This document shows positions 7,909-62,895 of a stretch of DNA of 64,000 nt, in pieces (position 1 is the stretch's first letter; the number at the start of each line of letters is the position of its first letter). Source of the DNA: Gavia stellata (taxonomy: Eukaryota; Chordata; Aves; Gaviiformes; Gaviidae). Where the stretch lies: assembly GCF_030936135.1 (NCBI RefSeq), contig NC_082603.1, positions 15,034,880 to 15,098,879 on the forward strand, in the 5' to 3' direction. Below the pieces are notes generated by a model, which was given only the letters and a program-made list of their open reading frames with translations, searched no databases and was not told the origin of the DNA. A program made the position numbers and the translations under genes.

Positions 7909-17414
<9,506 letters not shown>

Positions 17415-29732: not shown

Positions 29733-29738
29733 TTTATT
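29733..29738 (-). promoter_or_regulatory. Candidate polyadenylation signal of the microexon gene
   Basis: AATAAA on the minus strand, ~1.46 kb after the microexon-gene stop codon and just outside the SLC35A3 CpG island. An ATTAAA variant lies nearer, at 30609-30614. Either could end the transcript. Confidence 0.25.
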
Positions 29739-29739
29739 A

Positions 29740-31199: not shown

Positions 31200-31298
31200 T
31201 CATAGAGACCATTTTGATGTAGCAGCAGAGAGAGCAAAGGCACTCAAAACACTGAGTAACAGCAGGAGTCGGGGAGTGGAGTGTTTCCCAGCAGAGCT
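31200..31298 (-). CDS. Microexon gene terminal exon e49 with hydrophobic tail and stop
   Basis: After acceptor GCTCTCTTTTTTTTATAG the family frame reads 32 codons and TGA (31202-31200). It opens [10 protein letters not shown], continues with [16 protein letters not shown] and ends TSKWSL. Small residues, a short polar spacer and then a 16-residue hydrophobic stretch near the C-terminus match the layout of a GPI-attachment signal. A single-pass membrane anchor with a tiny tail is the alternative. The phase-0 acceptor fits all upstream exons. Confidence 0.8.
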   Translation of the reverse strand, partial: SSAGKHSTPRLLLLLSVLSAFALSAATSKWSL

Positions 31299-34200
31299 CT
31301 ATAAAAAAAAGAGAGCAATTTGATAAACCCAATTCAAAATAGTTCTATTTATTACTATTATAAAAGCACAGGAAGTTTCAGAAAAATCTTTTCCTATTAG
31401 CCCCCTTTATTATGTACACACTGCTGATATTAAAGGATCATGTGCCATATCTATAGTACACGTAAATCAACAGGTGTTCCATTTTTCAAGTGATAGGCAT
31501 TATCAAAAGGATAAAGCACTTATGTGGTCGTACTTCTCATTTTTGTTGATACTATTCCCATTTATTATGTTGCACATGTATTTTCAAACTTTTATTCAGA
31601 TATAGGAAATCTGACAGATACCTCACAGTATAAACAATACTTTCAGTTTTCTACAATATGTATAGGAAGAAACCAGTAGAAACTACAAAGAGGAAAAGCG
31701 CTTACCACTTGACTGCCCCCTGAGGAAGGTGAATTCTGAAAACAAACAAACAAACAAACATATCTACAAGTGTTCCCACCCAATGGCGTTGAACACAGTT
31801 TTGGCTATGATCAACAAAATTTTAATAGCTTAACCCACAGCATGGTTTTAAGTTGTTCAAGAGGAAAGCAGCTTTGCATAGATAAAGTAAATAGTTTTAG
31901 TTACACCCTCTATCTCATCTTAACATCTGAAAATTTCAGCTAAAATTGATGAAAGGGCAAAAGTCTAGTTTTCTTTCATTCCGTTATCATATTCCATACA
32001 GAGTTTTTCATTCCTATAGTTGAAACAAGATGTTAAAAATTGATGAGTACTGAAGAAAAAAAAAAGTGCAAAACCAGGTAACCTGCCAGTGAAAAACTCA
32101 ACAATCTCGCTTATAAAAACAACAACAACAAAAAAAGATTAACTGAGCAGAGCCTACACAGAGAACAGGAATTTAAAAATAGAGGACAACAAAATGTAAC
32201 AAGGCCACTAACTGAAATGTAAAGCAAGGAAGATTCAGATTTAAAATATAACTGTTATAGCCTTCCCAGGCTGAGGTCGTATTTTCAACAGCGGTTTCTT
32301 CAAATATGCTCTAATACAAATGGAACTAATACAGAATGTTCTCTTCAGATCGAATCATCCTGAAATTGCTCTATCAACCACCCAGGTTCTTTATTTACTA
32401 AGAAAAGAAGATGAAAATGCTGTGATGAAAGTATTCTTACCGGTTTCCCAGAATAAGTGCTTCCTGAGGTAGAGAAGCCCTGTAAAGTAATTACAAACCA
32501 TTTATTTTTGTTGTATGAGACTCCTAGTGAATTGTGTCCAAAGAGCACACTGCAGTCTTGAAAATGCCCTAGATATTACTAGTTTTGATACTGACTTTGA
32601 ATTTACCTTTTCCTTGCACCTTTTTTCCTATTTTAATTGAATGGTCTCAAGTAAGCACCGCTATGTCCTCTTTATTCCATCAACCATTTCAGAGGATTTT
32701 CAAAGCAATGTATCACTGACTGAACTACAGAGTTTGAAACTGAAACAGTTATCCTGATATTTAAATACATCATTCTAAATAGAATGATCCAGGCATGTTC
32801 CTGTGAGTAAGTAACAGAGTATATCAAAATTTTGCTATGGGAGGAATGAATGCTGCCTCATCCTAAGGTTCAAGTTTGAACAAAATATTCCAATTTTTGT
32901 TGGTCAGTTTTCTCATACATTTACAATTGTAACATAGTTTTAAATTTCACCCTCATTATTGTTACCTATTTTAAATACCAATATCCACATTTCTACCTTG
33001 GTTGTGGAATACTGAAAGAAGAATATCCTTACTGGCTTTCCTTGATGACTGCCTCCTGAGGAAGATGAACCCTGAAAAAAGATACCCATTTTTGACTCTA
33101 AGCCTATTTATACTTCAGTATATTCCTGCTATCTGGAATAAAGGACCACAGGAAAATGAACACTATTTTGTGTCCAGTTATCCAAAAATCCCAGGGAAAA
33201 GCTTATCTGAAATACAAGTATTTAACATATTTTTTGTTACAAGTATTCTTTTGAATGATGTATTAGTCAGAGAAATTAATTCAAAGAACAGCAACCTGTT
33301 TTGTAGTTATGATGTATTTAATATACATAAAGGAAAAATAATAAGGTCCAACTAAACATTGATTCACCTGGAATCAGTCTACAGTTAGATTGGGGGAGGG
33401 AGAAGGTAAATGTTAGATTCCTTTGCTCTACAGCCCTGCTTGAAGAAAGCACGAATAAGGAAGGTAACTGAAAATAAAAATGGATACTGAAAAATTAGAT
33501 GTTCTACAAGACTCTTATTCAGTTTTCTGGCAAAGTTGCTCTGCTTATTTGAATGGCATTGCCAACAGGAAATCTTACAAGCATTGACTCTTTAAGAAAA
33601 GCCATCAAATATGGTACACAAAATGTCTCATCTTTACGATTCATGTATAAGAAAATGTAACAGTTGTGCCCACTTTTTAATAACAGGTGGATACATCTTA
33701 TTTTCTATAAGAGATAAGCTAAAACATTTTGTGTCCTTATTTATATCTCCTGCCATTGAATGACAAGAGCAAGATCTAAGTTACATAGCAAAAAAAGGGG
33801 TCTGAAACAGATTAAAATATGCATAGTCAAATGTCAACTATTATTTCCTTCAAAAAGAAAAAGAAAGTATTTTCTTCAAAGCAACCCAGAAATACTTAAG
33901 ACATGCATATAAAATCAATGAAAAGGTGAGCTCTGAGTACAAAGTGTATGATTACTATGAATTTAAACAGAAATAACTGTTGAGAAGTCCCTGTAATCTC
34001 ATTCTGTGATTACTAGAACGAATCCAGAGATTGACTAGAAGTTCAGTCAGAGAGTAAAATGCTGGCTCAAAACTATGGAACTGTGTGAAAATAATATTGT
34101 GTTTGAATTGTTGAGATAAGTAAGAGTGACACTCTTTGCATATTTAAGTAATTCTCAGAAAAATGTCTAGTCCATAACCAACTGGATATAATTTTTTTAA

Positions 34201-37200
34201 CAGGCTTATAAGAAAAAAGAAAGGTGAACTCGAAATTTGTTTACTTACTGGTTTACCATGTTGTCTGCCTCCAGAATATGAGCCCTGTAAGAAGTCAATC
34301 AAACATCTATTAGTTGAATGAAAAAATTTTTTATCACTGTCTTGAGACAATTTGTGCAGTACTTAGGACAAACTTATTTGGATGTTGTTTGAACAAAAAG
34401 TACCTGGGGTACCTGAAACTTAAGCTATCTGCTGCACACCAAAACAATGGCAATTTGTTATCTGAATCAAGAAAGCGGTGCTATGAAATACATTATAGCG
34501 ACTATAGTTTTATACAGAGCAGTAATTCATTATAAACAAGTCTTTTATTCAGCTTGCTGAAACGACTTTAATTGATATTACCTCAACTATTTAAGCTCAG
34601 TAAAATGGCCAAACGAATGTATCTTTCAGCATCAAGTCACCATCTGACCTGATCCAGATGGTACAGGGAAAGAGTTAGGAGTGATGGGATGGGAAGAGAA
34701 TATACTCACCTGCCCACCATACTGGCTGCTTCCTGAAGGAGAAGATCCCTATTAAAAAAAAAGAAAAACACAGGAAACTTAAGTGCTTAAGCATTAGCAG
34801 AATAACAGCAGTTACTCTTTTTTTTTTTTTTTTAATCTGTCCAGAATGAAACATCACAGAAGGAGCTATTGACAGGAGATCTCAATAGGAATCTGGAAAG
34901 TATATTAATCTAAAAAGATGCAGTGTAGGAATTCTGACTTAATTCCGCTAAGTTCCTTAACAGTTGAACTAGTACATTTGGCAAACAGTCACAAAACACC
35001 TGCTAAGACTATTCCCTGACATAAATACATGGATATGAAGTGTCTTTAAGTATGGCTCTGTTCAAGAGAAAAAAACCCAAACTTGCGTTTTTCTGCTAGG
35101 TCAAACGTGTTCAGAGAGCATCATGTGTATTGTTGTAAGAGCATCCTTATTATTCCGAATAAGTAATTTGGGAAAAATTTGTTTTGCAGCTTTTAGAAAT
35201 CCTCTTCATGCTACAAGAAATTATCTTCTTAAAAGAGTGATACTGAACTCAAATGCTTGCCAATGGAGTAAAAAGAAATTATTTTTTAGTATAGCAGAGC
35301 GAAACATTGCGAACAGTAATATTAATGAAAAATATGTTCCACCTTCTTATTAGATAGCCATCCGTTACATCTGTTAACTATTTGGGCTGGTAAGATTTCT
35401 TGACCAGTGACAAACCACTAAGTCTACAAAAGGTACGTAGGGAGCTGCTTACAGTAAGGGACTCGAATTGCAGCTGAAGATGAGGAAAGTAGTATTATTG
35501 TGGTTAACACATCAGAATTTGTATTTTCAAAGCAATGTCTATTGGTATATTTTGTTCCAAATTTCCAAGTATTTAATCTAAACAAATGCAAAAAAAAAAG
35601 GATAATTTCAATATAATTGAAAAATAACACAGAAAATAGATTTTGAACTGGTGTCATAGCAATGTGAAAGTAAAACATAAAAATGGTTAATTAAAATGAT
35701 ACTTGAGATAAGAGGCATTCTGAGGCAAAATACCTAAAATTACGATTTATGCAGTTTCTTTAAATTGAAGTTTACACATGCTACTCCATTTCAGTTACTG
35801 AGAAATGGTCCGTATTTTCAGATATTTATTGAGAGTAAAATGACTCTGAAAAACTGACTGGCAGTATATGCACTGCATCATCGTTTTCATTTAATACATA
35901 GCAAGTAGGAAGATGATCTTGGAAAACAAAGAAAAATTGCTTGCCTGTCCACCATACTGACTGCTTCCAGAATACGATGAACCCTGTAAAAAGAATGTGA
36001 AACTTTTGTAAATATTTTTTTTAAAATACCACTTGGCATCAAAAAAACTCTAGACCTAATCTAAACAATATTAATGACACTGATTAACTGAAAGAACTTT
36101 ACACAGTTATTAATGCAGTGGCAAATGGCTACTTATCTGCACATCATATTAGTGGTTCATGCAACGAGATGAACCCTGTGAATTATTTTTCAGTATTTTT
36201 TTTGAGGTAAGTACAAAGTAAAATCTCGGCTCTAGTATATAGAAAGAGATAACTGAAACATCAAGAGTGATTCAATGAAAAGCCACGTGCCATCTCTGGA
36301 ATTATTGTCCCTATCTCTGTGACTAAACTGAACTCAATATTTAATGGCTTCTGGGCAAATATGGCAACTCAGCCATGTTTATTCCTGAGGAACTGGAACT
36401 AATCTGTCTAAATGATAAAGACAAATTGCCTACCTGTCCACCATGGTAGCTGTTTCCTCCAAAAGAGCCCTGTATTCAACAAAAATAGCAATGTTTACTC
36501 TGTATTAAATTCAATGTCACGTAGAGGAAAAACAAGAGAACATATTGATCAAGTAATTTACACTATTACTAGTATACTTTTCTCTTTGGTTGATTAAACA
36601 AGTAAAGGATTTCCTTATTCCTTCAGATTATTTGCTTGCAAAGAGAAGTAATTTATATGTTGTTTTCAGCACTTCTGATTCTCAGAAGTGGCATATATAC
36701 CATGAGTGATATACTTATAGCATGTGGGTTTTGCTTGATATCATAATCTCAGAAAGTGAAGTCATCTAAGCAATTTTGACTATACTGAGACGACAGATAA
36801 CTGAACACTCTTAATTTCAGCAACACAGTGGTGGTTTTGGTTTTGTTTTTTTTTTTTTAAAGTATTTACAAAAGTATAGAGAATATACTAATTAGACAGA
36901 AAAATGGAAATAGCTTTAACTTTTTAAATGCATTGTTCTGCTCCCACTTCAAAGCATTTTGGGGCAAGATTTCAGATCTAAGTTTCACTAGTTCAATCAT
37001 ACTGTTAATAACCATCATAAAAAGAGCACTGTTACACACGTGTCCAAAACCCAGCAGATGAGAGATATTTGGGAAACAGATTCTCATAAAAGTCCCAGGC
37101 CTCTCTTACAAACAAAAAGAAATTAAATGCTTTGAAGCAGTTTTTCATGTCTGGATATTTTAAAGTCTTCCTTTAATACAGATACTGGAGAACATTACTA

Positions 37201-40200
37201 CTTGTTTAGTCAAAGGTGGAGAAAGTGCAGTTTATTTCCCATGTATTTGTTTGAAAATAGAAATGCATCTGGGTAGCTAGTTTTGACTACAATACTAAAG
37301 TTGCAAGTGACTTAATATTTTTGTCCTTAGCAGGTTCAAAAATTCTCATTTTAGCACAACGTGAAAAAAACTTTCATCATACATCTAAATTCACAGACAG
37401 AATTCAAGAAATGCAATTCCTTGGGAATTTTCCAGTATGTGTATATACTATGAAAAATATACAAAGACAAAGAATACTTACTGAACTTCCACCGGGGCAT
37501 ACACATCCACCCTGTATAAAACACAACCAAACTTATTTTCCTGAGTCTATGACTGGAAGAGGCCTCTGAATTAGTAAATCAAACTCACATTCTCCTACTG
37601 CAAGAAAATGGACTATAAAATCCTGCTCATAGAGTCACCAAGCTCAATCTAAAAAGTAGCTTCTTTGTCTCTCCACTGTCCTTTCAGTCTAGCTGTGCAC
37701 TTTCTGATCAAATTTTTAAATCTAGTCTTCTAATTTCTTATTTAAAACTTACAGTAAACACCTTGCTCACCAAAAGGATGAGTAAAAAAAAAAAAATTCT
37801 GAGTAATACTACAGAAAATATTTGGTTGGGAGGTTTTTTTGTTTTGTTTTTATTTTTTTGTGGTGTTTTTTTTTTTTCCTAGAGAGGCCAGAGCACCTGG
37901 AATACATGCAGTACTCTTTCATGCTACAGATGTTACAGAAAACACTAAAGATGACTTCCAGTGGAGGCCTACTAGGTGATTTCTACTCTGATAAAACTGA
38001 CTGAGAGGTGGCCAGGGGTTCACCATTCAGTGTCCAACTCTCCACATTCAATCCACATGAAATGCATAAGAAGAAAAATGTTCAGCACCAAAGCAGGCAC
38101 AGAAACTCAAATACAACTGCCATTCAGACAGTTACTACTGGCTGCTCTAGCCTGCGGATGTCTGAATGACACGGAAAAAGAAAGCAACGTGTTGCTGAGG
38201 CTTTGGGCAAAAAGCACAGTGGTGAAGGAAAACAGTTCTTGTGAAGGAAAGATACGCAAAGTAAATTGTGAGTGCCTGACACTAGGACAGCTGAACGGTA
38301 TGGAGAAAGAAAAGCATACCTGTCCACCAGACTGGCTGCCTCCTGAAGAGTAGCCCTGGAAAAAAAAAAGAGTAACTAATTATGTTACTGAGTAACATTC
38401 TCACTTGTTCTCTGTAGTCCTTAGTCTTTCAAATTGCTTCTGTTTAAACATAACACCAAAAATGAGCTTCTTAGAACCATGATCTGTTTAAGGAAGCATT
38501 TCCATGCAGTCATACAGGCCCGTGTATCATTTGCTCATATCATGATCTGACATACCAGACAGACCCATACTTAGCAATCCTCATTCAGTTTGGCTTAAAG
38601 ACATTCTTTCTTAGAATGCTGCTTTTTTGCAAAAAGTACAGGTCAGTTTTCCTAATGAACTGTGTACCAAATCTGCAAATACTATGAAAGTAGAAGTTTT
38701 ACCTGTCCACTGTACTGGCTGCTTCCTGAAGAAGCTATACCCTAAAGAAATGGGAAAGCATTCATAATGATTCTGTGATATTGCACATTCTTTAACTTAC
38801 GACCTGTCACAGAAAAACACACTTGTCTTCCATGGATTTAAGTGTCACAGGAATGCGAATACTTCCTTTATGACCATACTGAAATCTATTGGCCTTTACA
38901 ATGGCTACTGTTTAAACAGAACAATAAAGATTAAATCAAAGTCAGCTTCATGCAGGTGTGAGCAGTGCTGCTGCACTGGATTGTGTGCTCAGGCCAGCCT
39001 CTTACGTTTTACTTTCCTGAGTGGGCTGACACAGCAGAAGGTCATATATTCATCTATTCTGCCCAAACACTGTTCTGCTGTAAGCCACCCCTTTGTAAAA
39101 TATTGTTTTCCACAAAACAGAAAAAGAGAGAAAGGTGAATAATGGAAAAAACAACCCATAAACAGAAAAACAATTCTCACCTGTCCTCCATAATGGCTGC
39201 CACCTGAGAAAGATGGACCCTGAAGCAAAGGTGCTAATTATTTCTCTATCAAAAAGCTTCTTTAAAGGTTTTTTGAAAGAAAGACTATTTTCTTTCTCTG
39301 ATGCACAATGAAAGATAACAGAAAGAGAAACACTCAACCTACTCCTTTATGTGTTCTATGCAAATTAAGGATGGTCTGTAACGTACGAACCTTCCATAAT
39401 ATTGATCACGAGCCATTAGGATTATATACCTAGTTTTGGGGGACTGTATTTGGACTGAAGGTCTCTTTCTCCTCTAATTCCCTCTTCCAGAAGTCTGACA
39501 ATAAATGTTTTCAGAGGCTAAGGATGAGTTTGTTGGGGATTTCACTCCATATTAAAGGCTATACCACTAGGCAGCAGTAGGAACCCTATCCATCATCTTT
39601 CATTTCACAAGGGCATGGAACACCTTCTTTTAACAACTCCTGACCTTCTCTTCTGTTCCCCTCCGAGACATACTGCTTCTCTGGTATCAACTCTGATATT
39701 GCATTTTGCTGAAGGAAGTGAGGTATACCATAGGTTGAGGTAGAGGAGGAATGCAATCTGCTTCCAGCACTCCTTACTGTTAGAGCTAAGAAAACATGCC
39801 AGCAGCAGAAGGGAAATGAGTCCAGAACAAGGCGGGCAGGTCAGACCAAGGAACAAGGTCAGAACTGCATTTACTGTGATACAACAGAAGTACTGGCCCT
39901 TCATAGTTTTTCTATTGTTTCAGATCCTATATCTTTAGATACCTGATTATCTATTACCAGATTAACAGAGTTTAATCAAAATACTATTTTTTCAGTCAAT
40001 AGAAAAGTACCAAGTTTTGATGTAGAAGCTGGGTGTTGGGATAAGGACTATACAAGAAAAGATTCTCACCTGTCCTCCATACTGGCTGCCTCCTGAAGAA
40101 GGTGAACCCTGAACAAAAAGAATTAAATGATCTCTATATCCATATCACAGTACTCCTTTAAACCATGCTCCATATGAAGGAGAGGTACCTAACTCCTTTC

Positions 40201-49200: not shown

Positions 49201-50565
49201 AGTTTCGATGGAGATTGTGAAATAAAGGAAAAAAGGGCTTCCTTTGTAAATGCTACTTCTAATAACTGATTCAAAAAAAATGTGTGATTGTTTCCAGTCA
49301 GAACGTTTGTAACTGCAATTTTTATTTGCCAAGTCCTTATCACACCATAGCACAATAATTTGACATAATTTAAATCTACATTTTCCTTTATCTATAAAAA
49401 CAATATAATTTCAAAGACGCTATTGCAGACAATTACTAAACACCACAGATTATTACAATGTACTGTGAAGGAGCTCTTGAAGATAAAATAATGAGGTAAG
49501 GTAAAGGTCCATGTAAGTACCTAGATACTTTAAAAGGTAGTAAATTCTGATATTGATATACTTGAGAAGAAATGCTTACACTGTCATCAGTTTCACTGCC
49601 TCCTATGGAAGGTGAATCCTGTAAAATAATGGAAAAACATTTATTTTCATATAAAAAGAACTCTTGCATGATCTTACTTGTGGAGAATATAAAATAGAAG
49701 AATAAAAATAACCAGCCACTTAGAATTTCCGATTTTACCTAAATCAGGGAATGTGCAAGAAAAGAAAAAATATGTAACTTTACCTGCTGGTTAAGCAGAA
49801 GAGGTTAAAAAAAAGAAAAACCCTCCTTGTAAACATGCATTTTTATACAGAAAAAAATTAAATAAAGTGGATTTGCAAAATTAATTATTCTTTACATTAA
49901 AAAGTCCCATTATCTATGTTTTCTTTCTAGATCCTGCACTAGAAGTAGCAACGTGACACAATTTTCTATGAAAAAGCAATCTGGATTATATGTCTTTTAT
50001 TTTTAATAAATAATTCTATATGACTTTGGCTGGTTAAAATGTATTACTAAACAAAACATAAGATGGTCCCTACAGAATGATCCCACAATGAGATTCACAT
50101 CAATAAATACAGACTTCAAATATAGTATCTGCATTTCCCTAGACTTTCAATAGCTTCTACATAAGTAAGGTGGGTAAAGTAAATGCACAAAATATTTTTC
50201 TTTTGAATGAGCTAATGCATAAATAGTAAAGTAGTTAAAACATTCAATAGTCACAGTGGCACAGTAAGCAGGATAGTGTATATAGTGCACATCACCTTCC
50301 CTCCGTTATGGAATCATTTGGACTTGTAAAGGGGTAAATAAACGTAAAGAGAAATAAAAGGTAAAATGTCATTTCCATGGTCATCACTTAAAAATAATTG
50401 TAATCTAGAACTCACTGCACATAAGAACCAACACAGCAAGCTTAAGCTTTTGATGTATGAGACAAATAATACTTACCTGACCATAAGATCCAGCACCACT
50501 ATGTGTGGAAGATCCACCCTGTTCAGAAAAACATAAATAATTTTCATATTGCAAACAGACTTTTG

Positions 50566-50600
<35 letters not shown>

Positions 50601-53600: not shown

Positions 53601-56600
53601 CTGTTTCCTTTGAAACAATATGGTTTAAATATGTATAGCTTTGACTCTTAATTTATAATCTTTTCCAGGTTTGAAGAGACCTTCATGTAACTCATAGCTT
53701 TTAAGTTTAGAAGAAAGCTTTTTGCAGGAATTTTCCTCCTGGGCTAAAGAATCTTCAAGGAAGTAGGTGACTTACGTGAGATTTGTGAATGCTGGTTTAT
53801 TTATACATATACATCTACCTATACCTTGCTTTTTGCATGCAGAAGAATGAACCTGCCTATCACGGCCAATATGTTTACATGCTAATCTTAGGCACTGCTA
53901 CTGCCATATGTAGAGGACTGGCCATGGACAGAAATTGAATATAATTCTAGTTTTTAATTCATTCTATTCCTTTGCAAAGATCAATGAACTTTACTGCTGG
54001 GTGAAGACAAAGATCACAACTATTGCTACCTAGTTTATCATAAATTAATTCTATCAGCTGATACTATCCCAAACTGAAATACAAGTCTCTTGTGTATCAA
54101 AGCGGACACATCTGCACTGAGAACTGGTTTTCTAACATGTCCAGTTTAGATGTCTTATTTTCTTCATGTTGAACATTATTGTTTGATAGCAACCTAATAC
54201 ACTCTTCTACCCCCAGCCAAACTGTGGTGGCTTGCTGTTAAAAACTAAGCCTCCTTTTGCACCAAAAATTTAAGCATGCAAAGAAAAGGGCCCTATTAGA
54301 ATGAAAACTTGCATAAAGACGTCCATCTTTTTCCTTGGAAATGGATTTGCTTATCTAGCATTACAATCACAGGACAAATAAAAAAGTTTTTCCTCAATGA
54401 AGTTTCAATATTAGTTATTTTAATAGCCTAGCCTGTATTTTAAAACATGTAGGTCATAATTACTGATCAGCCTCAATTATATGAAAAAGGCGGTATTCTA
54501 CCTAACAAAAATTACTGTTGCTATTTGTTAATGACAGTTAAGTTCAGAAAGCAGTAATTTCTTTGTACAATTAGTTTGTTTAAATAGCATGCATTTTTAT
54601 AGACATAATAATCCACAATATGATTCTTGTTGAAATTGAAAACTAAAAAGAATTACACCATTCAAATGGGTTTATATAAATACAGCCTCTGTAAAAGCTT
54701 CAAAAAAGTTTTCAGGGAGACGATAGGTGACTTTAAAATCCATGTTCACCTGGCAAATCCAGGTGAAGCCAGAAGCCTGGTAAAGCTAGCCTATAATGCC
54801 CATGTAACCACGCTCCTTGCGCTTTTTCCTGGCACAGAGGCATTGCCCAAGAGAAAAGTTTATCCAGTGCCACTGATCATGAAATTGCAGTGATTCTCTT
54901 TATGGGAAAGAATAGTTTAAATATTGATTTAAGAGATTATTTTTTGAAGTACTTATCAGATTTTGACATTTTAATCACAATACCTTATTGCACCAATGAA
55001 AAGGACCTAGGCTGGATGCAGTTAAATTCTGTGGTTATTACAGGGTATATTGACTCTGGTTTTTGAAAGTAATGAATAATTGGCACGTAACAGTCAACTG
55101 ACAGAGCATCTGGATTGCCAAGCACAGTTACAGAAAGTTAGTGGCCAAATGGTAATTATGCAGTTAAAGTGGGACTCATTTTTCCATTTCATTGTATGTA
55201 TCCATACTAAGGAATTTATCAATAATGTTTAGTGTTACCCAAGTGTCCATACTTACTAGATGATTAATTCTAAATACTCCATTATGTAGATGAAAGTTTA
55301 AACTCAGGAAAAAGAATTACCTGTCTATTACCACTGCTTCCATCAGGACAAATGCAACCACCCTATAAATTAAAAAAACAAAACAAAACAAAAAACCGGA
55401 AACAATTATTGTTCTGGGAAAGTTTGTCTTATTTCAGATGTGAAACTGTGTTTAGGGGAAGAAAGACTATGGGACTAAAAATTAGCTGTGACCTTTCCTA
55501 TACCTAGAACAAATGAGGGGGCAGCATAGCTCTATACATTTAATGTTTGCTTTGCAAGTTAGACTGATGCTACATCTCTCAGTGCTATATCTCAATGACA
55601 GATACCTCATCAAGAGAGAATTACCTGGGTAGTCAATAGTACAGAGAATCACTATTGTGCTCTCACCAATAAACCATGTGTGCAATTGAAATAGTGTTAA
55701 GAAGTGGTTTTAAAGAGCCATTTCAGATAAATTTAATCTGAACAGGGTCACTTCATGTACAGTTTAATGCATAACATCACCAATCCCCCATGCAAAATTA
55801 CTGGACTTAAACTCTGAATCCTGAATTTAATTAGTTTAATTACCATGAAGCTATCTGGACAAGACTAGATAAAAATAGAGAAAATCCTGACCTGACTACT
55901 TGATCCACCACTGGTTGCAATAAATGATCCACCCTGTGAAGAAACCAATTATTTTTTATAGAACCATTTTATCAGAATCTAACATGTATAAAATTATGTA
56001 GTGAGAAGTAAGGTGACAAACTCTTTGTACTGCTTCCCCGCACCAACAAACATTATCTGTTCAGAACTCTCTGTATGAATCACTGTGAAAGTATAAATTT
56101 GGATGAAACTTAATTAGTGACTGGATACAATACACAGGGAATCTATATCAGGAAAACTAATTAAGAAAACTGTTACTCTCTGGAGCTCAGAGATCTGACT
56201 ACTATTGAATTAGACTTCAAACTCTCTGAGACAGAGGACTATGCTAGTGTTACATCTACATAATGCTGGCCATAGTGGGATTCCAGATCTCTGGGAACCT
56301 GATGGGTACAGTACAAAATATTAAGAAAAATAGAATCAGTTGCAACTCTGGATCAGTTGAATTTCACATAATTCTATAACATATACCCTGCTACAGCAGT
56401 ACATAAGTCTACAGAATATGAAAATTGGACCTACTGTTGTAACAGAAGCATGTAATCACTAAGATGTACCGTGTAACCAAATTCTAAATGAAACAGAATT
56501 ACATATCTGGCCATTACTATCACTAGAGCAGGACTGTTTCTAAAACTACTTCTTTCATGTTTTGCAAACAACTTTTACAAAATGTTATGTAAAGAAACAC

Positions 56601-59600
56601 TGACAATGCTTATCTGCTTAGTGGAGTGAAGGAACAGAGAATACAGTATATTCTGGCCCCATTATCATTATTTACAACTGTGCAAAATTATAACATTATA
56701 GGGAAAATGCTGCCAAATCAAAATAGCATCCTTCAGCACAGATAAATTAATGGAACCTAATTTTCAGAAATGAAATATAATTTATCAGAAAGCTCCTTGC
56801 AATGAGATCATGCAGCAGGCAACTATGTTATTACCTGGAGATTAGTGTGGTTGCTATTTGAAGTAGAAGACTCATTCTGTGGAGAAACAAGAAATTACTC
56901 ATTTTACTGTAAGGGTAATAAATTAAAATACATAGTTCTATTGGGAAAGAACTACCTACCCCTAAACAGAATACTCTGTTAAAGAAACTAGATCCTTATT
57001 CTTCTTTTTGTAGGTAATACAACAAGGAGCTGTAATACCAGCAGTAGTTCAGAAAAAGTGACAAGAATGGTTTACCTGTACATCATAGTCTCTTCTGCTC
57101 AAAACATGTGATGTATCCTGTAAAAAACAAAAGACATTTACTATAAGGAGTTGAAAACTCTATGATGAGTGACAGGCCTTATTTTTTTCCATATTATTTA
57201 TTTACAGCAACTCCAGACTCTTTAATGCATACATTGAGTAGGAATGCCTTATTATAAAATAAAAGGTTATTTGCACGTTATTTTTATAGGCTACTGCTGA
57301 GTCTGACTTGAAGCTATACAATACACACATCTGTATCTCCTCCACAACATGCTGAACACAATACCAAACGTTATTCTTTCTTACTTACATTATTCTATCT
57401 TACTTCAGCTAAAATTTTACCTGTCTTCTGTTTGTATGATACTCATTTAATTTTAACTTTAGGTGGGACCAACACTGTATGTGTGCTTCCTGAAGAACAG
57501 GAATTTTACCTGCCCGATACCTCATAACAGGATTTTCCTGTCTTTTTTCATAGATATACTTCCTTTAAAGTAAATTCACCCAAAGAGCAAACAGCCAAGC
57601 TATTTTATTTTACTTTTTTCCTTACAAAGGTAAATATTAATTACGACAAACAATTAGGGAAAACTTAGGCATAACTGGGACAAATTTGGTATAGTTAGGA
57701 CAAAAACCCTACAAGCAGTGAAAAAAGAAAAAAAAAAAAAATTACTTACTCGGGCAACAACAACTTTCTTGTTTGCACAACCAGAACTCTGTAAAGGATC
57801 AAGAAGCCATTTATTACTTTATAGATGCAGCCATCCACACAAAATACTTTCAGCAAAAATCTACCTAAACTTGTGAAGGTGGCATATTTTGGGACAGGAA
57901 AGCATCCAGAGAATTGACCTCACTTTCACTGAATAACACAGTGGAAAATACTGTATTAGAGTTATTTGAAAATAAAACTAACATTGATAGACTAGCTTTG
58001 GAGCAAGAGAGGAAAGTGTCATTTATCTCCCGAAACCCTGATACTGTACAAATAGGAATCCAAACCACATCAGCCTATTCCTGTGGAACCAATACAAAAT
58101 TCAGACTTAACTGCACCATAAAACACATTTACTAAACAGTGAGGCAGCAAGGTCTCACTTTCTTTTAGTGTTCTTTTCTTTTTTCACAATTCAGCATGAA
58201 ATTGTGAAAGTATAAAACAGTTTGTTTACCAAGCTATGTCTACAGCATATTCAAAGCGTGATTCCAATTTTAGGTAAATTGGCTTGAGTATCAGTAAACA
58301 ATGTAGTAACAAAAGCAAAAAGTTTGTGTCAAGCTCATGACCTGAATTTTGGCCAGTTTCTCAGGAGTTCTGCAATCTGCCATCAGCTGCATGCTGCCAC
58401 AGCTATCATTTTACTATCAGTAAGAGTCTTAAAAAGCATATTCTTCATCTGTTTTCACCTTATTACTCCTTCATCAGAAGTTCCTGCCTAGTGGAGTCTC
58501 CTTCAGCTCAAACACTGTGATTTAGAGAAAAATCGGTGTAATGAAATTTTGGGGTTTTTTTTTGAACATTCCCCACCCTTCTTTGTAAGAATGTTTAGAA
58601 GCAAACTGTTTTAAAATGAAGTCCAGCAATACGCACTGGATAGGGATAACCAAGAGAATAATAGCATCTTTTGTGAGCAAAGGAGGAAGTGATGAGACTC
58701 AAACAGGGCTTACTGCTGAAGGATTTTCTTTTTGCAGAACCTTTTGCATTAAATCTAATGTAATGCATTCAAGGTAAACACAAGCAAAACCAAAAAATAT
58801 TTTCAGAAGGCCTCCTTACTTCCTAGTATACATGTTTGGTGCAGTACTAAAGCACTAGAGAGGAAAAATAGGGAAAATAATAAAGCAGTAAAGTATATGG
58901 CTGACAACTGAAGGCAAGTAGCTGATGACAGAAGGTTACTCTAGATGGCAGTAAAACAAAAGGAGGCTGTAATAGATGGAAAAAGCTTTTCAATGAACAG
59001 AAAGAAGCATGGAAAAATGTCATTCATTTACACAACAGTATATTTGCTTGGTCACGAGCTATCCATGTTAATCACAGTTTCTGCTTGTAGGACAGATGGA
59101 AAGTCTTGACAGAGAGAGTATTATCAGGGGATAAATGTTACTTTACAATACTAGCATATATACAAGTTTAAATCAGAACAAGCAGGAAAAGCTTGAGGCG
59201 GCTACATGCCTCACGTACACAGATGGTTAACTCCCAAATACCTATCCGGTCAAAGTGCATATACTACAAAAAAACCTGTTAGTATATATTCTTAAAAGTA
59301 TTGTGCAGTTTTAAATAATTGTGCAGCAGCCTTGAGAATGACTAGAAGGGACTGATTACAGAGAAATATAACATCAAATAATCTCATTCTTTAATTAACT
59401 TTTTGAAGGGTATTATAAAGCAATCATACACTAAAATTAGAGGCCCACAGGTCTAATGCAGAAGTGTTCAGTTACTAACTCTGTCATTGACCATAAGGTT
59501 TTGAATACTGCAAAAGAAAAAAAAGCACTTACTTGACCATTGGCACTATAGGTAGTGTCATTCTGGAAAAGAATAAATTATTTCCTTCTTCAAGAATTAT

Positions 59601-62600
59601 TTAAATACAGTAAGGTTGCAGAAACCTCATTCTTTCTGATACTGCATACAGACAAACAAAAATAATTTGTTCTTCACATCGTCCACAGCCTTGCCTAAAG
59701 TAGTTTGAAATACTACCATCTGAGTCTGAAAAACATTTTAATAGCAACTTTAGAGTGGTAGAAATGTAACATGAAAAGCAGTGGAATATCTACCACTGTA
59801 TTTCTCTTCTTTCTTTCATTGTATGTATTTAAAGCTTGTCTATGGGATTTTCTTTTTTTTTTTAAATTACTGTAAAATGTATCCTTAGATTTTCGGCAAA
59901 ATCTTCTGTTAGTGCAAAGCCACTGAAATCTCTTAATCTATATTTAATTTCATCAAGTTAAATGCATTTAAAAGCACAAAATGTATCTGTAAACACTTGA
60001 CAATTTTCAGTAAGAAAACATGCTGTTGCTGAAACAGCTATTAGTGTGGGAATTCTTTCTGGATCATTCTGCTCACAAGACTGCATCTAGCAGCGCAATA
60101 TTTTCCCATCTACGTAAAAAATGTTGTGATGAAAATACATTGGAGAAAGCATACTCACATCATCACAAGCATTGGGATTATCATCTGAGAAATCCTGTGA
60201 ATCCTAGAAGAACATCAGATAACAGTTAGTTCCTCACAAAAATGGATTGTTAAAAATACACTTTGATGTTGTACTCTGCAAGATAGAATTGAGGCTCATG
60301 CAAAGAAAAAGCTGCTGAGTTAAATTAAAGTAAGATCTTTAGAAAGAAAATAAGGAGCCAAATACATGGCTGCAATAGTTCCATTCTTCAGTAACAGAAA
60401 AAAACCAAACAATAAAAAAAAAAAGAGCACAGAAACTATTATGTTTTATAACATCTATGAGAAAGATGATGCAGGAACTACAAAGATTAGCACAAGATGA
60501 TATATAACTAGGAAAAAGAATGAACTAGTTACCTGACTATCATAATAGCTGTCTGAGGAGGATGATCCACCCTTTAACAACACCAGAGAAAATTAGAATA
60601 TAGAAAACCTGATTTTGAGCACAAGTTAAGCTTGTATGAAATGACATACAAGTAGGGAAATAGAGCATTACTTACTTGGCCACCACCATAGTTTTGTGAG
60701 AAGGATCCACCCTATAAAAGGAACAAATATAAAACCTACTTCAGAAGAAACCGTGATTTTGTTTGGGGGCTGTAAAGCTGGAATAAACAATTGCCTGGGA
60801 TTCCTTTGAACAAATACAGCTTTCCAGATATCTAGATAACTTATCAGATATGATAAAAATTCTTACCAGGAGAAAATCAAGGTCTACCTACCTGGTTGCC
60901 ACCATAATTTTGTGAGGATGATGGTCTACTCTGCTAACAACAACAACAAAATTAGAATTAATATTACAGTACTGCAGATCGGACATTGTTCAGCCAACGT
61001 GGAACCTGTGTTAAGTAAAACGTCAGTGGGAGGAAGTAATAATCTAGTACTTACTTGGCTACCACCATAGTTTTGTGAGGAGTATGATCCACCCTGTGAA
61101 AACAAAACAGCAACAGTTATCATGCTGGAGAACTGAATTTGATCAGAATCCACAGAGCTAGCTTTATCAGGTTGCCAAGTTCTTTCTATGTAAGTGGAAT
61201 TTCAGGGCTGATAAAAAGTATATTTGAAGAGAATGAGTTACAGGCTGGAGCTGGGGAAACTCTGCAAGAGTCTATACCCTCCAGAGCAAGAAAACTATAC
61301 TCTGGATTAGAACTGATTATAAAGTTTTTACCAATGTGTAAGAAAGAGCTACCTACCTGACCACCCTGTGATCCATCCTGTAAATTAGGCAAAAATTATG
61401 CATGTTTTAGACACTTACTGTTAGGCTATGGATTATTTTTAATGAAAGCTGCTTAGGAATAGTAAGGAGCCGAGGCAAATATACAATATAGATATGATTT
61501 CTAATGTAGTAAGCATAGATTGCCAATAGTGCAAAGGTAAATACTACATGAGACATGTCAAGGAACCACAAACATTTATCTTTAAGTAATACCTAGTACA
61601 CTGATGAGTTTCATTCTGAACAGTCTCTAGAGAATGTATCTTTTTTTCTCCTGTAGAAAACCTAATTTATACAAATGGAATGAAAAATTCCCCTGCTAGA
61701 ATTATGACACAGAAAGCTGTGAGACACAGTGGCCTTGAGCAAAAGGTTTCAAATAAAACACTATGTTTCAACATGCCCTCTTTAGAAAAGGAATGTAACT
61801 CCTCCAAGTGAAGAGACATTTGTAGAAGTATTAGTGTCAAAAGTGCCCAATAAGAACAGTGAAATCCTGAGCTATCAAAGTGAGTGGGATATTTGCCCTT
61901 CACTAAAATGGGGCTGAGACTTCATCCAGAAGAGGCAAAGAAACATTATATGAAAAGTATTATCTTTCCATGTTCTAGCAGTTTTTAGAACAAAATCTAA
62001 GTGTTTCCTTTAGTCTTAGAAAGGAATAGCTCCTCTATAAAAAAAAAACCTTGAAAAGCTATTATAAAATAATACAATTATATACCTATATAATATATTA
62101 TTCTTTCAAGTTGCAATAATATATTACATACAGTGTATTGTATATACTATACTACATTATAATAAATTATAGCAACATCTATATTTGTTTATTTATAAAT
62201 ACAGTATATATTTATATTGCTAAACCACATTATTTGTTAATACAATGAATCTATCCAATTTTTTTATTTCTTGTGAAAAATCAGTAAGAATCAAGAGAAA
62301 TGTCACAAATAAAAAAAAAAAAGCGATAACTATTGCTGTTTCCTTACCAATTTTTAAAATTTACAGAGATTGTTTCTTTAAACATAGCAGACATCTTTTA
62401 GGATAGTGTTTTTTAGAGTTCCAACACTGAAACTTGTAACAAATACACATGTAGCTATCTATACTTCACTGCACAAACTGAATAAATTGTTAAGCCAGTC
62501 TCTTTCATGAACCTCAAGTGGCAGTCCTAAAATATTTTCTGACTTTTGGTGCAAAAAGTCCACAGAGAGGCTGGTGAGCTCCAGTCCTGATTTAAGTAGT

Positions 62601-62895
62601 GCCAGTTGACTAGCTCTGCAGCGGACTTGTTCTTTCCAGAATCTGACCTTAATATCCTATAGAGCTAGACATTTCACAGACATAATGCTAGGAAAAAGGG
62701 GGGAAAAAGACCCCAAGCTCCTGTGCATAGAAAGACAGTGAGTTCTAATCTCATAATTGGTAAGATTACATGGATTTGCTCTCTGAATCCGAAGTTGGTA
62801 CTAAGTTAGTGGCAAAATTAATGTTGGATGCATCTTAAAATCGGAGGAGGAAGGCCATTTACCTGGTGGCAGGGATTGCTATCATACGAAACACC
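31200..62895 (-). CDS. Unrecognised microexon gene encoding a Gly/Ser-rich modular protein with a hydrophobic C-terminal tail
   Basis: I do not recognise this gene. At least 49 minus-strand exons are visible, numbered e1 (62863) to e49 (31200) in transcript order: 48 microexons of 21-45 nt and one terminal exon. Every microexon is a multiple of three, phase 0 at both ends, flanked by AG and GT (one GC) and open in the same frame; the other two frames contain stops in several exons (e7, e10, e24). The join gives at least 643 residues. The C-terminal half repeats a ~13-residue module (G/D-S[11 protein letters not shown]); the N-terminal part is more varied, with Asn sequons, acidic residues and scattered Cys. 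The last exon has a Leu-rich tail suggesting GPI anchoring, so a secreted or surface role is inferred. No start codon or signal peptide is visible, so it is 5'-incomplete. Introns are 100 bp to 2.3 kb. It could be an adhesive, coat or mucin-like protein; function is unknown. Confidence 0.85.
31706..31735 (-). CDS. Microexon gene exon e48 (30 nt)
   Basis: Peptide [10 protein letters not shown]. The polypyrimidine tract of its acceptor is a TTTG microsatellite (plus-strand AAAC units at 31740-31760). Donor GTAAGC. Confidence 0.84.
32441..32479 (-). CDS. Microexon gene exon e47 (39 nt)
   Basis: Peptide [13 protein letters not shown]. Acceptor ...TACTTTACAG, donor GTAAGA. Confidence 0.85.
33033..33071 (-). 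CDS. Microexon gene exon e46 (39 nt)
   Basis: Peptide [13 protein letters not shown]. Acceptor ...CTTTTTTCAG, donor GTAAGG. Confidence 0.86.
34249..34284 (-). CDS. Microexon gene exon e45 (36 nt)
   Basis: Peptide [12 protein letters not shown]. With e46 and e47 it forms a C-terminal subset ending in GKP instead of GGQ. Donor GTAAGT. Confidence 0.85.
34710..34748 (-). CDS. Microexon gene exon e44 (39 nt)
   Basis: Peptide [13 protein letters not shown]. Acceptor ...CTTTTTTTTTAATAG, donor GTGAGT. Confidence 0.87.
35945..35983 (-). CDS. Microexon gene exon e43 (39 nt), GC donor
   Basis: Peptide [13 protein letters not shown]. The donor is CAG/GCAAGC, a GC-AG intron, the only non-GT donor in the set. 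Acceptor ...CTTTTTACAG. Confidence 0.82.
36137..36175 (-). pseudogene. Dead microexon copy (39 nt)
   Basis: Exactly 39 nt between an intact acceptor (TTCACAG) and a position where the donor reads ATAAGT instead of GTAAGT. In the family frame it starts GSSRCMNH, then has a TAA stop, then ends YDVQ. Length, flanks and ends fit the family, but both donor and frame are broken: an exon that has died in place. Confidence 0.75.
36434..36469 (-). CDS. Microexon gene exon e42 (36 nt)
   Basis: Peptide [12 protein letters not shown]. Donor GTAGGC. Confidence 0.84.
37482..37511 (-). CDS. Microexon gene exon e41 (30 nt), Cys type
   Basis: Peptide [10 protein letters not shown]. Donor GTAAGT, acceptor ...TTTTATACAG. 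Paralogue of e30. Confidence 0.83.
37766..38345. repeat. Near-identical intragenic duplicate tract, copy 1
   Basis: About 580 bp matching 45686-46268 at roughly 97-99% outside homopolymer runs. It covers the intron between e40 and e41 and most of e40, and stops abruptly inside that exon. A 125-codon open frame on the plus strand inside it is a by-product with no exon-like support. Confidence 0.9.
38320..38355 (-). CDS. Microexon gene exon e40 (36 nt)
   Basis: Peptide [12 protein letters not shown]. Its downstream 26 nt and the following intron are nearly identical to e29. Acceptor ...CTTTTTTTTTTCCAG, donor GTATGC. Confidence 0.86.
38703..38741 (-). CDS. Microexon gene exon e39 (39 nt)
   Basis: Peptide [13 protein letters not shown]. 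Acceptor CCCATTTCTTTAG, donor GTAAAA. Confidence 0.86.
39181..39219 (-). CDS. Microexon gene exon e38 (39 nt)
   Basis: Peptide [13 protein letters not shown]. Donor GTGAGA. Confidence 0.86.
40070..40108 (-). CDS. Microexon gene exon e37 (39 nt)
   Basis: Peptide [13 protein letters not shown], the cleanest example of the module. Acceptor TTCTTTTTGTTCAG, donor GTGAGA. Confidence 0.88.
40461..40499 (-). CDS. Microexon gene exon e36 (39 nt)
   Basis: Peptide [13 protein letters not shown]. Differs from e37 at one residue and a few silent third positions. Donor GTGAAA. Confidence 0.87.
40878..40916 (-). CDS. Microexon gene exon e35 (39 nt)
   Basis: Peptide [13 protein letters not shown]. Acceptor ...ATTTTTCCAG, donor GTAAGC. 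Confidence 0.87.
41201..41239 (-). CDS. Microexon gene exon e34 (39 nt)
   Basis: Peptide [13 protein letters not shown]. Acceptor ...TCTTTACAG, donor GTAAGC. Confidence 0.86.
41428..41563. repeat. Intronic paralogous segment, copy 1
   Basis: Intron between e34 and e33. Matches 48018-48164 in the same orientation (shared AAGGGTGGAAGGCAAA, GGAATGGCATTTCTTTATTT-like and GAATCCTG strings), with small indels. A long plus-strand open frame crosses it by chance. Confidence 0.85.
41980..42018 (-). CDS. Microexon gene exon e33 (39 nt)
   Basis: Peptide [13 protein letters not shown]. Acceptor is a long C/T tract ending CCCCCCAG; donor GTAAGC. Confidence 0.86.
42219..42248 (-). CDS. Microexon gene exon e32 (30 nt)
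   Basis: Peptide [10 protein letters not shown]. Looks like a standard module that has lost its first three residues; the acceptor is now TTTCTGAAAG. Donor GTACAC is weaker than average, so it may be skipped. Confidence 0.65.
42249..43930. other. 1.7-kb intron between e31 and e32
   Basis: No convincing exon. A possible remnant at 43444-43473 would read [10 protein letters not shown] after a fair acceptor but has a poor donor (GTTAGA). Otherwise featureless. Confidence 0.5.
43931..43972 (-). CDS. Microexon gene exon e31 (42 nt)
   Basis: Peptide [14 protein letters not shown], a diverged module. Acceptor ...CCCCCCCTTACAG, donor GTAAGC. Confidence 0.8.
44590..45187 (+). mobile_element. CR1 LINE 3' fragment in the microexon gene intron
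   Basis: Plus-strand CR1 ORF2 C-terminus in two frames: [17 protein letters not shown] to [15 protein letters not shown], then a frameshift near 44840-44860, then [19 protein letters not shown] to [18 protein letters not shown]. Ends with the family 3' tail ...CTTTCCAACCTAAATGATTCTATGAT. It sits in the e30-e31 intron and is antisense to the gene. Confidence 0.95.
45381..45410 (-). CDS. Microexon gene exon e30 (30 nt), Cys type
   Basis: Peptide [10 protein letters not shown], related to e41 and e13. Acceptor ...TTTTTTACAG, donor GTAAGT. Confidence 0.82.
45686..46268. repeat. Near-identical intragenic duplicate tract, copy 2
   Basis: Partner of 37766-38345, same orientation, about 7.9 kb away, ending inside e29 at the homologous codon. 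Differences are mainly in T-run length plus a few substitutions. Confidence 0.9.
46243..46281 (-). CDS. Microexon gene exon e29 (39 nt)
   Basis: Peptide [13 protein letters not shown]. Its downstream 26 nt lie in the near-identical tract shared with e40; the rest of the exon differs. Donor GTATGC. Confidence 0.85.
46561..46599 (-). CDS. Microexon gene exon e28 (39 nt)
   Basis: Peptide [13 protein letters not shown]. Acceptor made of a T tract then CCCCCCCAG; donor GTGGGA. A 20-nt A-rich run follows on the plus strand at 46501-46519. Confidence 0.84.
46897..46935 (-). CDS. Microexon gene exon e27 (39 nt)
   Basis: Peptide [13 protein letters not shown]. Acceptor ...ATTTTTTGCAG, donor GTAAAT. 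Confidence 0.84.
47206..47244 (-). CDS. Microexon gene exon e26 (39 nt)
   Basis: Peptide [13 protein letters not shown], ending His where most end Gln (shared with e34). Donor GTAAGC. Confidence 0.85.
47922..47960 (-). CDS. Microexon gene exon e25 (39 nt)
   Basis: Peptide [13 protein letters not shown]: a diverged, basic module. Acceptor ...ATTTTTTTAG, donor GTAAGC. Confidence 0.8.
48018..48164. repeat. Intronic paralogous segment, copy 2
   Basis: Intron between e25 and e24, paralogous to 41428-41563. Shows that the e24-e25 and e33-e34 regions arose by duplication of a larger block. Confidence 0.85.
49580..49618 (-). CDS. Microexon gene exon e24 (39 nt)
   Basis: Peptide [14 protein letters not shown] diverged, acidic version of the 13-residue module. 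Both other frames have stops. Donor GTAAGC. Confidence 0.82.
50477..50518 (-). CDS. Microexon gene exon e23 (42 nt)
   Basis: Peptide [14 protein letters not shown]. Acceptor ...TTTTTCTGAACAG, donor GTAAGT. Confidence 0.84.
50568..50599 (+). repeat. 32-nt T homopolymer
   Basis: Uninterrupted T run in the intron just upstream of e23, seen as poly-A on the sense strand. Length is likely polymorphic or assembly-sensitive. Confidence 0.9.
50977..51021 (-). CDS. Microexon gene exon e22 (45 nt)
   Basis: Peptide [15 protein letters not shown]. Start resembles e17/e21 (GGSSxY). Acceptor ...TTTTCTGTACAG, donor GTAAAC. Confidence 0.83.
51152..51190 (-). CDS. Microexon gene exon e21 (39 nt)
   Basis: Peptide [13 protein letters not shown], copy of e17. 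Donor GTAAGT. Confidence 0.86.
51291..51332 (-). CDS. Microexon gene exon e20 (42 nt)
   Basis: Peptide [14 protein letters not shown], copy of e16. Acceptor ...TTCCTTTCAG, donor GTAAAT. Confidence 0.85.
51744..51782 (-). CDS. Microexon gene exon e19 (39 nt)
   Basis: Peptide [13 protein letters not shown], copy of e15 at a 1092-bp offset. Confidence 0.85.
51885..51926 (-). CDS. Microexon gene exon e18 (42 nt)
   Basis: Peptide [14 protein letters not shown], copy of e14 at a 1092-bp offset. Confidence 0.85.
52245..52283 (-). CDS. Microexon gene exon e17 (39 nt)
   Basis: Peptide [13 protein letters not shown], identical to e21; paralogue of e15/e19. Donor GTAAGT. Confidence 0.86.
52383..52424 (-). 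CDS. Microexon gene exon e16 (42 nt)
   Basis: Peptide [14 protein letters not shown], identical to e20; paralogue of e14/e18. Confidence 0.85.
52836..52874 (-). CDS. Microexon gene exon e15 (39 nt)
   Basis: Peptide [13 protein letters not shown], identical to e19. Acceptor ...TTTTCTGCACAG, donor GTAGTT. Confidence 0.85.
52977..53018 (-). CDS. Microexon gene exon e14 (42 nt)
   Basis: Peptide [14 protein letters not shown], identical to e18. Part of the recently duplicated block. Donor GTAAAC. Confidence 0.85.
53059..55320. other. 2.3-kb intron between e13 and e14
   Basis: Largest gap in the exon series, at the border between the Gly/Ser-repeat half and the varied N-terminal half. A 27-nt phase-0 open segment flanked by AG and GT near 54751-54777 would read ASGFTWICQ, but its pyrimidine tract is poor. 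Nothing else was recognised. Confidence 0.5.
55321..55362 (-). CDS. Microexon gene exon e13 (42 nt), Cys type
   Basis: Peptide [14 protein letters not shown]. One of three exons with a GGCxC start (also e30 and e41). Acceptor ...TTTATAG, donor GTAATT. Confidence 0.82.
55892..55933 (-). CDS. Microexon gene exon e12 (42 nt)
   Basis: Peptide [14 protein letters not shown]. Acceptor ...TTCTTCACAG, donor GTCAGG (non-consensus +3/+4). Confidence 0.78.
56835..56876 (-). CDS. Microexon gene exon e11 (42 nt)
   Basis: Peptide [14 protein letters not shown] with two Asn sequons (NES, NHT) and no Gly. Donor GTAATA. Confidence 0.74.
57076..57117 (-). CDS. Microexon gene exon e10 (42 nt)
   Basis: Peptide [14 protein letters not shown]. 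The two other frames contain stops, so this exon helps fix phase 0. Acceptor ...TTTTTTACAG, donor GTAAAC. Confidence 0.76.
57750..57788 (-). CDS. Microexon gene exon e9 (39 nt)
   Basis: Peptide [13 protein letters not shown]: basic, with one Cys and a VVV run; compositionally the odd one out. Acceptor ...CTTTACAG, donor GTAAGT. Confidence 0.72.
57789..59532. other. 1.7-kb intron between e8 and e9
   Basis: AT-rich and featureless; no acceptable AG-microexon-GT pattern found. Confidence 0.5.
59533..59562 (-). CDS. Microexon gene exon e8 (30 nt)
   Basis: Peptide [10 protein letters not shown] with an N-D-T glycosylation sequon. Acceptor ...TTTTCCAG, donor GTAAGT. Confidence 0.76.
60159..60203 (-). 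CDS. Microexon gene exon e7 (45 or 36 nt)
   Basis: Peptide [15 protein letters not shown] if the upstream acceptor (TTCTTCTAG) is used. A second AG 9 nt further gives [12 protein letters not shown], also in frame. Strongly acidic, one Cys; donor GTGAGT. Unlike the Gly/Ser modules. Confidence 0.75.
60533..60571 (-). CDS. Microexon gene exon e6 (39 nt)
   Basis: Peptide [13 protein letters not shown]; acceptor GTTGTTAAAG is weaker than most; donor GTAACT. Confidence 0.78.
60676..60711 (-). CDS. Microexon gene exon e5 (36 nt)
   Basis: Peptide [12 protein letters not shown], acceptor TTCCTTTTATAG, donor GTAAGT. Confidence 0.83.
60892..60930 (-). CDS. Microexon gene exon e4 (39 nt)
   Basis: Peptide [13 protein letters not shown], acceptor TTGTTAGCAG, donor GTAGGT. 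A recent relative of e3; its first two residues differ from the usual GG. Confidence 0.82.
61055..61093 (-). CDS. Microexon gene exon e3 (39 nt)
   Basis: Peptide [13 protein letters not shown], strong acceptor TTTTGTTTTCACAG, donor GTAAGT. Closely related to e4 and e5 (SQNYGG core). Confidence 0.85.
61357..61377 (-). CDS. Microexon gene exon e2 (21 nt)
   Basis: Peptide DGSQGGQ, the shortest exon of the set. Acceptor ...TTTACAG, donor GTAGGT. At 21 nt it is near the lower limit for exon definition. Confidence 0.72.
61378..62862. other. 1.5-kb intron between e1 and e2
   Basis: Contains a very AT-rich patch (62060-62225, TATA/ATAT-like). No exon recognised. Confidence 0.5.
62863..62895 (-). 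CDS. Microexon gene exon e1 (33 nt)
   Basis: Peptide [11 protein letters not shown]. Acceptor tract of TTTG units ending TTTTTAACAG; donor GTAAAT. Most upstream exon found; has a Cys. Confidence 0.75.

Follow-up and report, generated by a model that had tools for sequence, protein, structure and literature searches.

We identified in the Gavia stellata genome (1.32 Gb) a gene that, to judge from its sequence, probably belongs to the FRRS1 family and codes for a Reeler head, a Ser/Gly/Gln/Tyr stalk built from about 67 microexons, and a hydrophobic, anchor-like tail; we propose a tether or coat role for its product. The microexon array is a real observation and is confirmed: in the window (the whole 64,000-nucleotide stretch that was analysed, positions 15034880-15098879 of contig 10, NC_082603.1), 48 microexons lie between 31706 and 62895 on the minus strand, in phase 0-0 and in a single open frame that encodes 617 residues.

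Gene Structure and Coordinates

The whole model, assembled from the window and the adjoining contig sequence, has 72 coding exons over a span of 52,976 bp, with 3180 coding nt and 1059 residues. Microexons make up 67 of the 72 coding exons (48 inside the window and 19 past its end) and 2547 of the 3180 coding nt; they are 18-57 nt long, every one a multiple of 3 and in phase 0, and the median intron within the array is 450 nt. All junctions from exon 4 through exon 72 are phase 0 in one frame, and the exon borders are AG/GT, except for one AG/GC: exon 35945-35983 has a GC donor, not GT. The gene extends about 20 kb past the window end, up to contig position 15119054 (84175 in window-style numbering, that is, counted on past the window's last position). 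The features are as follows, those past the window end being given in contig and window-style positions:

16158..17519, minus strand: two exon-bearing ORFs of the presumed SLC35A3, downstream on the same strand (Nuc_sug_transp, 67.5 and 73.6 bits)
31200..31298, minus strand: terminal coding exon 72, with acceptor ttttttttatag; encodes the protein's most hydrophobic 15-residue stretch, GPI-signal-like or a short membrane anchor
31706..42248, minus strand: microexons 55-71, the YGGQ subfamily and the 3′ end
Microexons 64-71, minus strand: 37482-37511, 36434-36469, 35945-35983 (GC donor), 34710-34748, 34249-34284, 33033-33071, 32441-32479, 31706-31735
Microexons 55-63, minus strand: 42219-42248, 41980-42018, 41201-41239, 40878-40916, 40461-40499, 40070-40108, 39181-39219, 38703-38741, 38320-38355
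43931..50518, minus strand: microexons 46-54, at 50477-50518, 49562-49618 (weak donor), 47922-47960, 47206-47244, 46897-46935, 46561-46599, 46243-46281, 45381-45410, 43931-43972
50977..53018, minus strand: microexons 37-45, at 52977-53018, 52836-52874, 52383-52424, 52245-52283, 51885-51926, 51744-51782, 51291-51332, 51152-51190, 50977-51021
55321..62895, minus strand: microexons 24-36, at 62863-62895, 61357-61377, 61055-61093, 60892-60930, 60676-60711, 60533-60571, 60159-60203, 59533-59562, 57750-57788, 57076-57117, 56835-56876, 55892-55933, 55321-55362
62896..64000, minus strand: part of intron 23, leading out of the window
Contig 15099064-15113838 (window-style 64185-78959), minus strand: microexons 6-23, past the window end
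Contig 15114205-15114231 (window-style 79326-79352), minus strand: microexon 5, past the window end
Contig 15114871-15119054, minus strand: coding exons 1-4 (window-style 83980-84175, 81581-81717, 81180-81271, 79992-80100), encoding a signal-peptide-like start and the Reeler domain

The original prediction described 48 microexons and a matching terminal exon on one strand, in phase 0-0 and one frame, and this stands for the minus strand; its size range and uniform borders do not, since one exon is 57 nt long (49562-49618, the longest, with a weak donor) and one has the GC donor. The interval 31200-62895, offered as the whole gene, proved too narrow: 19 more microexons and four Reeler exons lie past the window, to window-style 84175, and a gene complete inside the window was rejected on the further exons found in the next 100 kb of contig sequence. 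Neither is the gene made of microexons only, as had been claimed, since four ordinary exons with the signal-peptide-like start and the Reeler domain begin it. The placement between two neighbours was correct, with Pfam matches in two exons of each: downstream the gene that we take to be SLC35A3, and upstream, on the same strand, one that we take to be AGL (glycogen-debranching-enzyme matches in two exon ORFs).

Single exons are less certain than the array as a whole, because 16 of the 67 microexons fail at least one of three criteria (splice score, open phase-0 frame, and a GSQYN content of at least 55%), 14 of them on composition; some may thus be wrong, and others may have been missed. Five of the 16 fall among microexons 46-54, and four exons score below the splice-site threshold (49562-49618, 47922-47960, 46243-46281, and 60533-60571). 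Since the first coding exon starts directly after an acceptor, it is probably preceded by a 5′ untranslated exon.

Comparison of the Array with Chance Expectation

We scanned for non-overlapping splice-site pairs 18-66 nt apart at three thresholds, using generic, untrained matrices and no composition filter. At the middle threshold the minus strand of the array gave 71 pairs, 51 of them a multiple of 3 in length, against 16 (7) on its plus strand, 20 (8) and 18 (8) on the two strands of the AGL region of equal length, 12 (5) and 9 (1) on those of the SLC35A3 region, which is shorter, and on average 15.3 (5.3) in 40 dinucleotide shuffles. The loosest threshold gave 103 pairs (61 a multiple of 3) against 40, 48, 31, 39, and 21 in the controls, and the strictest 46 (33) against 6, 8, 7, 6, and 1. 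Matrices trained on seed exons, likewise free of composition, gave 58 pairs, 48 of them a multiple of 3, against 2, 3, and 4 pairs in controls, a comparison that is partly circular. The finder that combines splice sites, an open phase-0 frame and a GSQYN content of at least 55% returned 50 exons on the minus strand of the array, none on the plus strand, none on either strand of the AGL region, and 2 and 0 on those of the SLC35A3 region.

A first scan of the window for short phase-0 exons had listed 47 Ser/Gly/Gln-rich rows on the minus strand, some overlapping or unrelated, and 5 on the plus strand that were unlike the minus-strand candidates. Five of the seven rows reported by TRF lie in the interval; they are short simple repeats only, and none is the exon array. 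Among the matches listed, a two-exon segment matched this array alone (6 of 6) and a second segment matched itself alone (1 of 1).

Coding Constraint and Exon Duplication

We consider this very probably a real coding gene. Ten disjoint paralogous exon pairs, read in the proposed frame, give a pS of 0.318 and a pN of 0.134 (pN/pS about 0.42; bootstrap interval 0.30-0.57, with 0 of 2000 replicates reaching 1), and the same pairs show no constraint in the shifted frames (pS 0.122 and pN 0.195; pS 0.161 and pN 0.172). A wider set of 55 equal-length pairs (at least 36 nt, 2-28% divergence), which are not independent of one another, gives a pS of 0.341 and a pN of 0.141. There is no stop in the 849 microexon codons and there are 10 and 41 in the shifted sense frames, which is weak evidence because open exons were chosen.

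Tandem duplications are found in microexons 37-45 (offset 1092 bp, 99.1% identity over 880 bp) and in microexons 6-23 (offset 2735 bp, 99.7% over 1622 bp), and the recent duplicate exons are still open. They suggest continuing growth of the array, although part of this could be assembly duplication. In the youngest duplication the exons differ at 1 of 144 sites and the remainder at 3 of 1477. Only the older tandem duplication shows exons clearly more constrained than introns, with 11 of 81 exon sites and 55 of 214 aligned intron sites changed (Fisher p 0.028, for one of 28 alignment rows, picked after the rows were seen); at least seven short rows show the opposite trend, with more differences in the exon than in the little flanking sequence that aligns. 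We also observed a duplicated block (37726-38349 and 45644-46272, 93.7% identical, about 7.9 kb apart) that carries part of a microexon and its intron, a further sign of segmental growth.

Relationship to FRRS1 and Other Reeler Genes

The gene has a complete Reeler domain in exons 1-4 (Pfam PF02014, 109 bits, E 3.1e-31, profile positions 1-131 of 131, cut-off 21; 105.3 bits when the whole protein is searched), and from the comparison below it likely descends from the FRRS1 family. We compared three sequences by identity and introns: this gene, the gene of the same genome that we take to be FRRS1 (by gene order), and a gene on contig 19 that we take to be REELD1-like. The three introns in the Reeler exons are at the same aligned places as in FRRS1, with phases 1, 0, and 2; FRRS1 also has a phase-0 intron after its fourth exon, whose place cannot be aligned. 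In both genes, in addition, the ATG follows immediately on an acceptor, the same exon opens with NSAVSH, and a WIAP segment is present. The REELD1-like gene has two of the three Reeler introns in common and lacks the phase-0 intron between Reeler exons 2 and 3, and on this difference in exon structure an identity as REELD1 was rejected.

Over the joined Reeler part, identity is 37.7% to FRRS1 (BLAST E 2e-27) and 27.9% to the REELD1-like gene (E 1e-18). The exon-wise protein query of the genome ranks the two the other way, returning the gene's own four exons, a REELD1-like exon at 31.5 bits, an FRRS1 exon at 18.7 bits, and one chance-level match; because of this order we lowered our confidence in FRRS1 descent very slightly. 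A Reeler profile search of the genome gave at least four matches (two FRRS1 exons, one Spondin-1 exon, and one REELD1-like exon), a lower bound, since the list misses this gene's own exons. The peptide of the Spondin-1 exon resembles the Spondin-1 sequence in PDB.

FRRS1 proper, a ferric reductase, was rejected as an identity, as the Pfam search of the model finds neither DOMON nor cytochrome b561 after the Reeler domain. None of the nine DOMON and none of the eight b561 profile matches in the genome falls in this gene, which is weak evidence because FRRS1 itself is absent from the b561 list and enters the DOMON list only at E 0.1. Certain ORFs are presumably the DOMON and b561 exons of FRRS1; one 38-residue FRRS1 piece that had been taken for cytochrome b561 has no Pfam match and was dropped. 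Phase-0 exons may have gathered readily at the phase-0 intron that follows Reeler exon 4.

The Encoded Protein and Its Proposed Role

No Pfam family except Reeler was found in the 1059-residue model; NCBIfam gave nothing but two sub-threshold bacterial matches, and the sequence search of PDB gave weak matches to the Spondin-1 Reeler domain (E 0.007-0.0097) and others at chance level. Mean hydropathy over 15-residue windows exceeds 1.0 only at residues 3-25, a signal-peptide-like stretch, and at residues 1033-1056; the interior maximum is 0.91, within the Reeler domain. By the same calculation the C-terminus consists of small residues, a spacer, a hydrophobic stretch, and a polar TSKWSL end, so that a short membrane anchor is possible instead of GPI; anchoring by one or the other seems the fairly probable outcome for the predicted protein. 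With a full Reeler domain and FRRS1-like intron places and phases, the gene is no longer one of unknown identity, as first described, and the description of a modular secreted or surface protein of symmetric microexons agrees with the exon array, the signal-peptide-like start and the hydrophobic ends, all at the level of prediction. The observation behind the original prediction is right, and stronger than was claimed, and its interpretation is half right.

The part encoded by the array has 849 residues, 73% of them G, S, Q, Y, or N; at about 0.36 nm per residue in an extended chain, the stalk would measure roughly 300 nm if fully extended. The motif [GS]Y[GS]Q occurs 12 times, whereas shuffles have 1.7 and none of 500 attains that number; CxC occurs three times, against 0.25 in shuffles. 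G-G-C-x-C opens three spaced microexons (55321-55362, 45381-45410, and 37482-37511), and the CxC sites might serve along the stalk as disulphide cross-links or metal sites. N-glycosylation sequons are less frequent than in shuffles. A proteoglycan with GAG attachment was rejected, since SG (44 vs. 58.5) and SGxG (5 vs. 14.5) are both below the shuffles.

In the mechanism that we propose, the protein would enter the secretory path and be anchored through its C-terminal tail by GPI or membrane; the Reeler head would be held at the tip of a long, disordered polar tether, and adjacent molecules would join through the repeated [G/S]Y[G/S]Q stickers to form a coat or matrix. Since all microexons are symmetric and in phase 0, each could be left out, inserted, or copied with no shift of the reading frame, and splicing and germline exon duplication could both adjust stalk length and sticker number. 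From the sequence, extensive exon skipping is a slightly less than even prospect, and a sticky tether or coat is possible but a little more doubtful. With similar reserve we suggest a vertebrate micro-exon gene (MEG), an FRRS1 paralog (of birds, probably) that would have come independently to the flatworm MEG design, in which 67 skippable exons, mostly with one sticker each, would dial the length and stickiness of the coat.

Genomic Neighbourhood and a Possible Chicken Counterpart

Beyond AGL, on the opposite strand, lies FRRS1, and the genes follow one another as on chicken chromosome 8, for which a published table gives SLC35A3, ENSGALG00000046652, AGL, FRRS1, and PALMD (PMC11222857). According to the excerpted text of an RNA-seq study of muscle biopsies, ENSGALG00000046652, which has no symbol or name, is up-regulated on one genome build and non-significant on the other, and is outside the eight genes set aside as skin contamination (PMC6826700). 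If this chicken gene, matched by position alone, is the orthologue, the array gene is not confined to this species. In the titles, abstracts, and passages covered by our literature search we found no description of this gene.

We also observed a GC-rich stretch at 28001-30000 (GC 0.568), between the terminal exon of the array gene and the coding exons of SLC35A3, which is a probable SLC35A3 promoter island. Open-frame fragments of a recurrent element are found at 24332-24910, 44504-45105, and 13747-14067 in the window, and on contig 10 near 87.7 and 163.4 kb in window-style numbering; the element is presumably a non-LTR retrotransposon, CR1-like.

Alternative Explanations

The exons could instead be divided between a short Reeler gene, made of exons 1 to about 6, and an independent microexon gene that starts from a first exon of its own. 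Exons 5-14 are indeed widely spaced and less repetitive, and exons 5, 6, 8, 9, 12, and 13 fail the composition criterion; however, the junctions of exons 4-72 share one phase and one frame, the hydrophobic tail sits at the far 3′ end, and hydropathy never exceeds 1.0 between the protein's two ends, so the model has no second signal-peptide-like start, and we think such a division quite unlikely. Decay of a formerly coding gene is less likely again: it would fit the four exons under the splice-site threshold, but the 1059 codons are open with AG/GT (one AG/GC) borders (properties for which the exons were selected), the pN/pS of the duplicates is near 0.4, recent duplicates are open, and chicken has an unnamed annotated gene in the same interval, as far as the published table goes. 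It is extremely improbable that low-complexity DNA mimics microexons by chance or as a repeat artefact. The encoded sequence is simple in composition, as such an artefact would be, but the finder's 50 exons stand against 0, 0, 0, 2, and 0 on five control strands, TRF shows short simple repeats only, and the array segments match only this array among the matches listed (6 of 6; 1 of 1, itself).

The same gene may also work in another way. Instead of forming a coat or tether, its product could be secreted as a soluble matrix or mucosal protein, or the gene could serve to generate variable isoforms, the role suggested for schistosome MEGs. Symmetric exons permit any skipping, and the products of MEGs are described, in the excerpted text, as variable pools that are secreted or anchored (PMC4350168). 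Against this, the hydrophobic tail is present, and pN/pS is below 1 between duplicates, which argues against fast diversification; we regard this alternative as rather unlikely. The reading that we prefer, and think fairly probable, is an anchored FRRS1-family protein with a microexon-encoded stalk. Within the literature searched, which we covered by title, abstract, and passage, no such gene design is reported from vertebrates. The array is a natural test of how dozens of exons of 18-57 nt are recognized in one transcript, and the gene may explain the unnamed chicken gene in a well-known interval; exons so short easily escape annotation.

Comparison with Known Systems

The gene is similar to FRRS1 (Reeler-DOMON-cytochrome b561) in its signal-peptide-like start, its Reeler domain, and the place and phase of three Reeler introns, but has microexons and an anchor-like tail where FRRS1 has DOMON and b561, and identity in the Reeler part is about 38%. 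The REELD1-like gene shares the signal-peptide-like start and the Reeler domain, but the plus-strand candidates of the 20 kb examined include no comparable exon series. FUS-type [G/S]Y[G/S]Q low-complexity domains, elastin, and silk-like matrix proteins are rich in Gly, Ser, Gln, and Tyr and have repeated aromatic stickers. The array product shares both features; in contrast to these proteins, it is apparently secreted and has about one unit per microexon, and the likeness is in composition.

In the excerpted text of the same source (PMC4350168), MEGs are genes with mostly very small symmetrical exons and signal peptides, apparently restricted to platyhelminths; an apparently intact FRRS1-related case in a vertebrate, with about one peptide module to each exon, would show convergence. 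Compared by description, the array gene has the MEG design, its coding sequence being mostly in tiny symmetric exons, and it shares the signal peptide (signal-peptide-like here) and a secreted or anchored product (predicted here). Unlike schistosome MEGs, it belongs to a vertebrate, starts with a Reeler head, and encodes S/G/Q/Y-rich repeats in its 67 microexons. Mature MEGs have, according to those excerpts, a high dN/dS (PMC4350168), whereas pN/pS is about 0.4 among the array's own duplicates, the two being different kinds of comparison. The closest parallel in plan is VAL-6, hypothesised in the same excerpts to be a composite in which a gene from a different family carries a MEG-like section (PMC4350168): here too such a section is joined to a gene from a different family.
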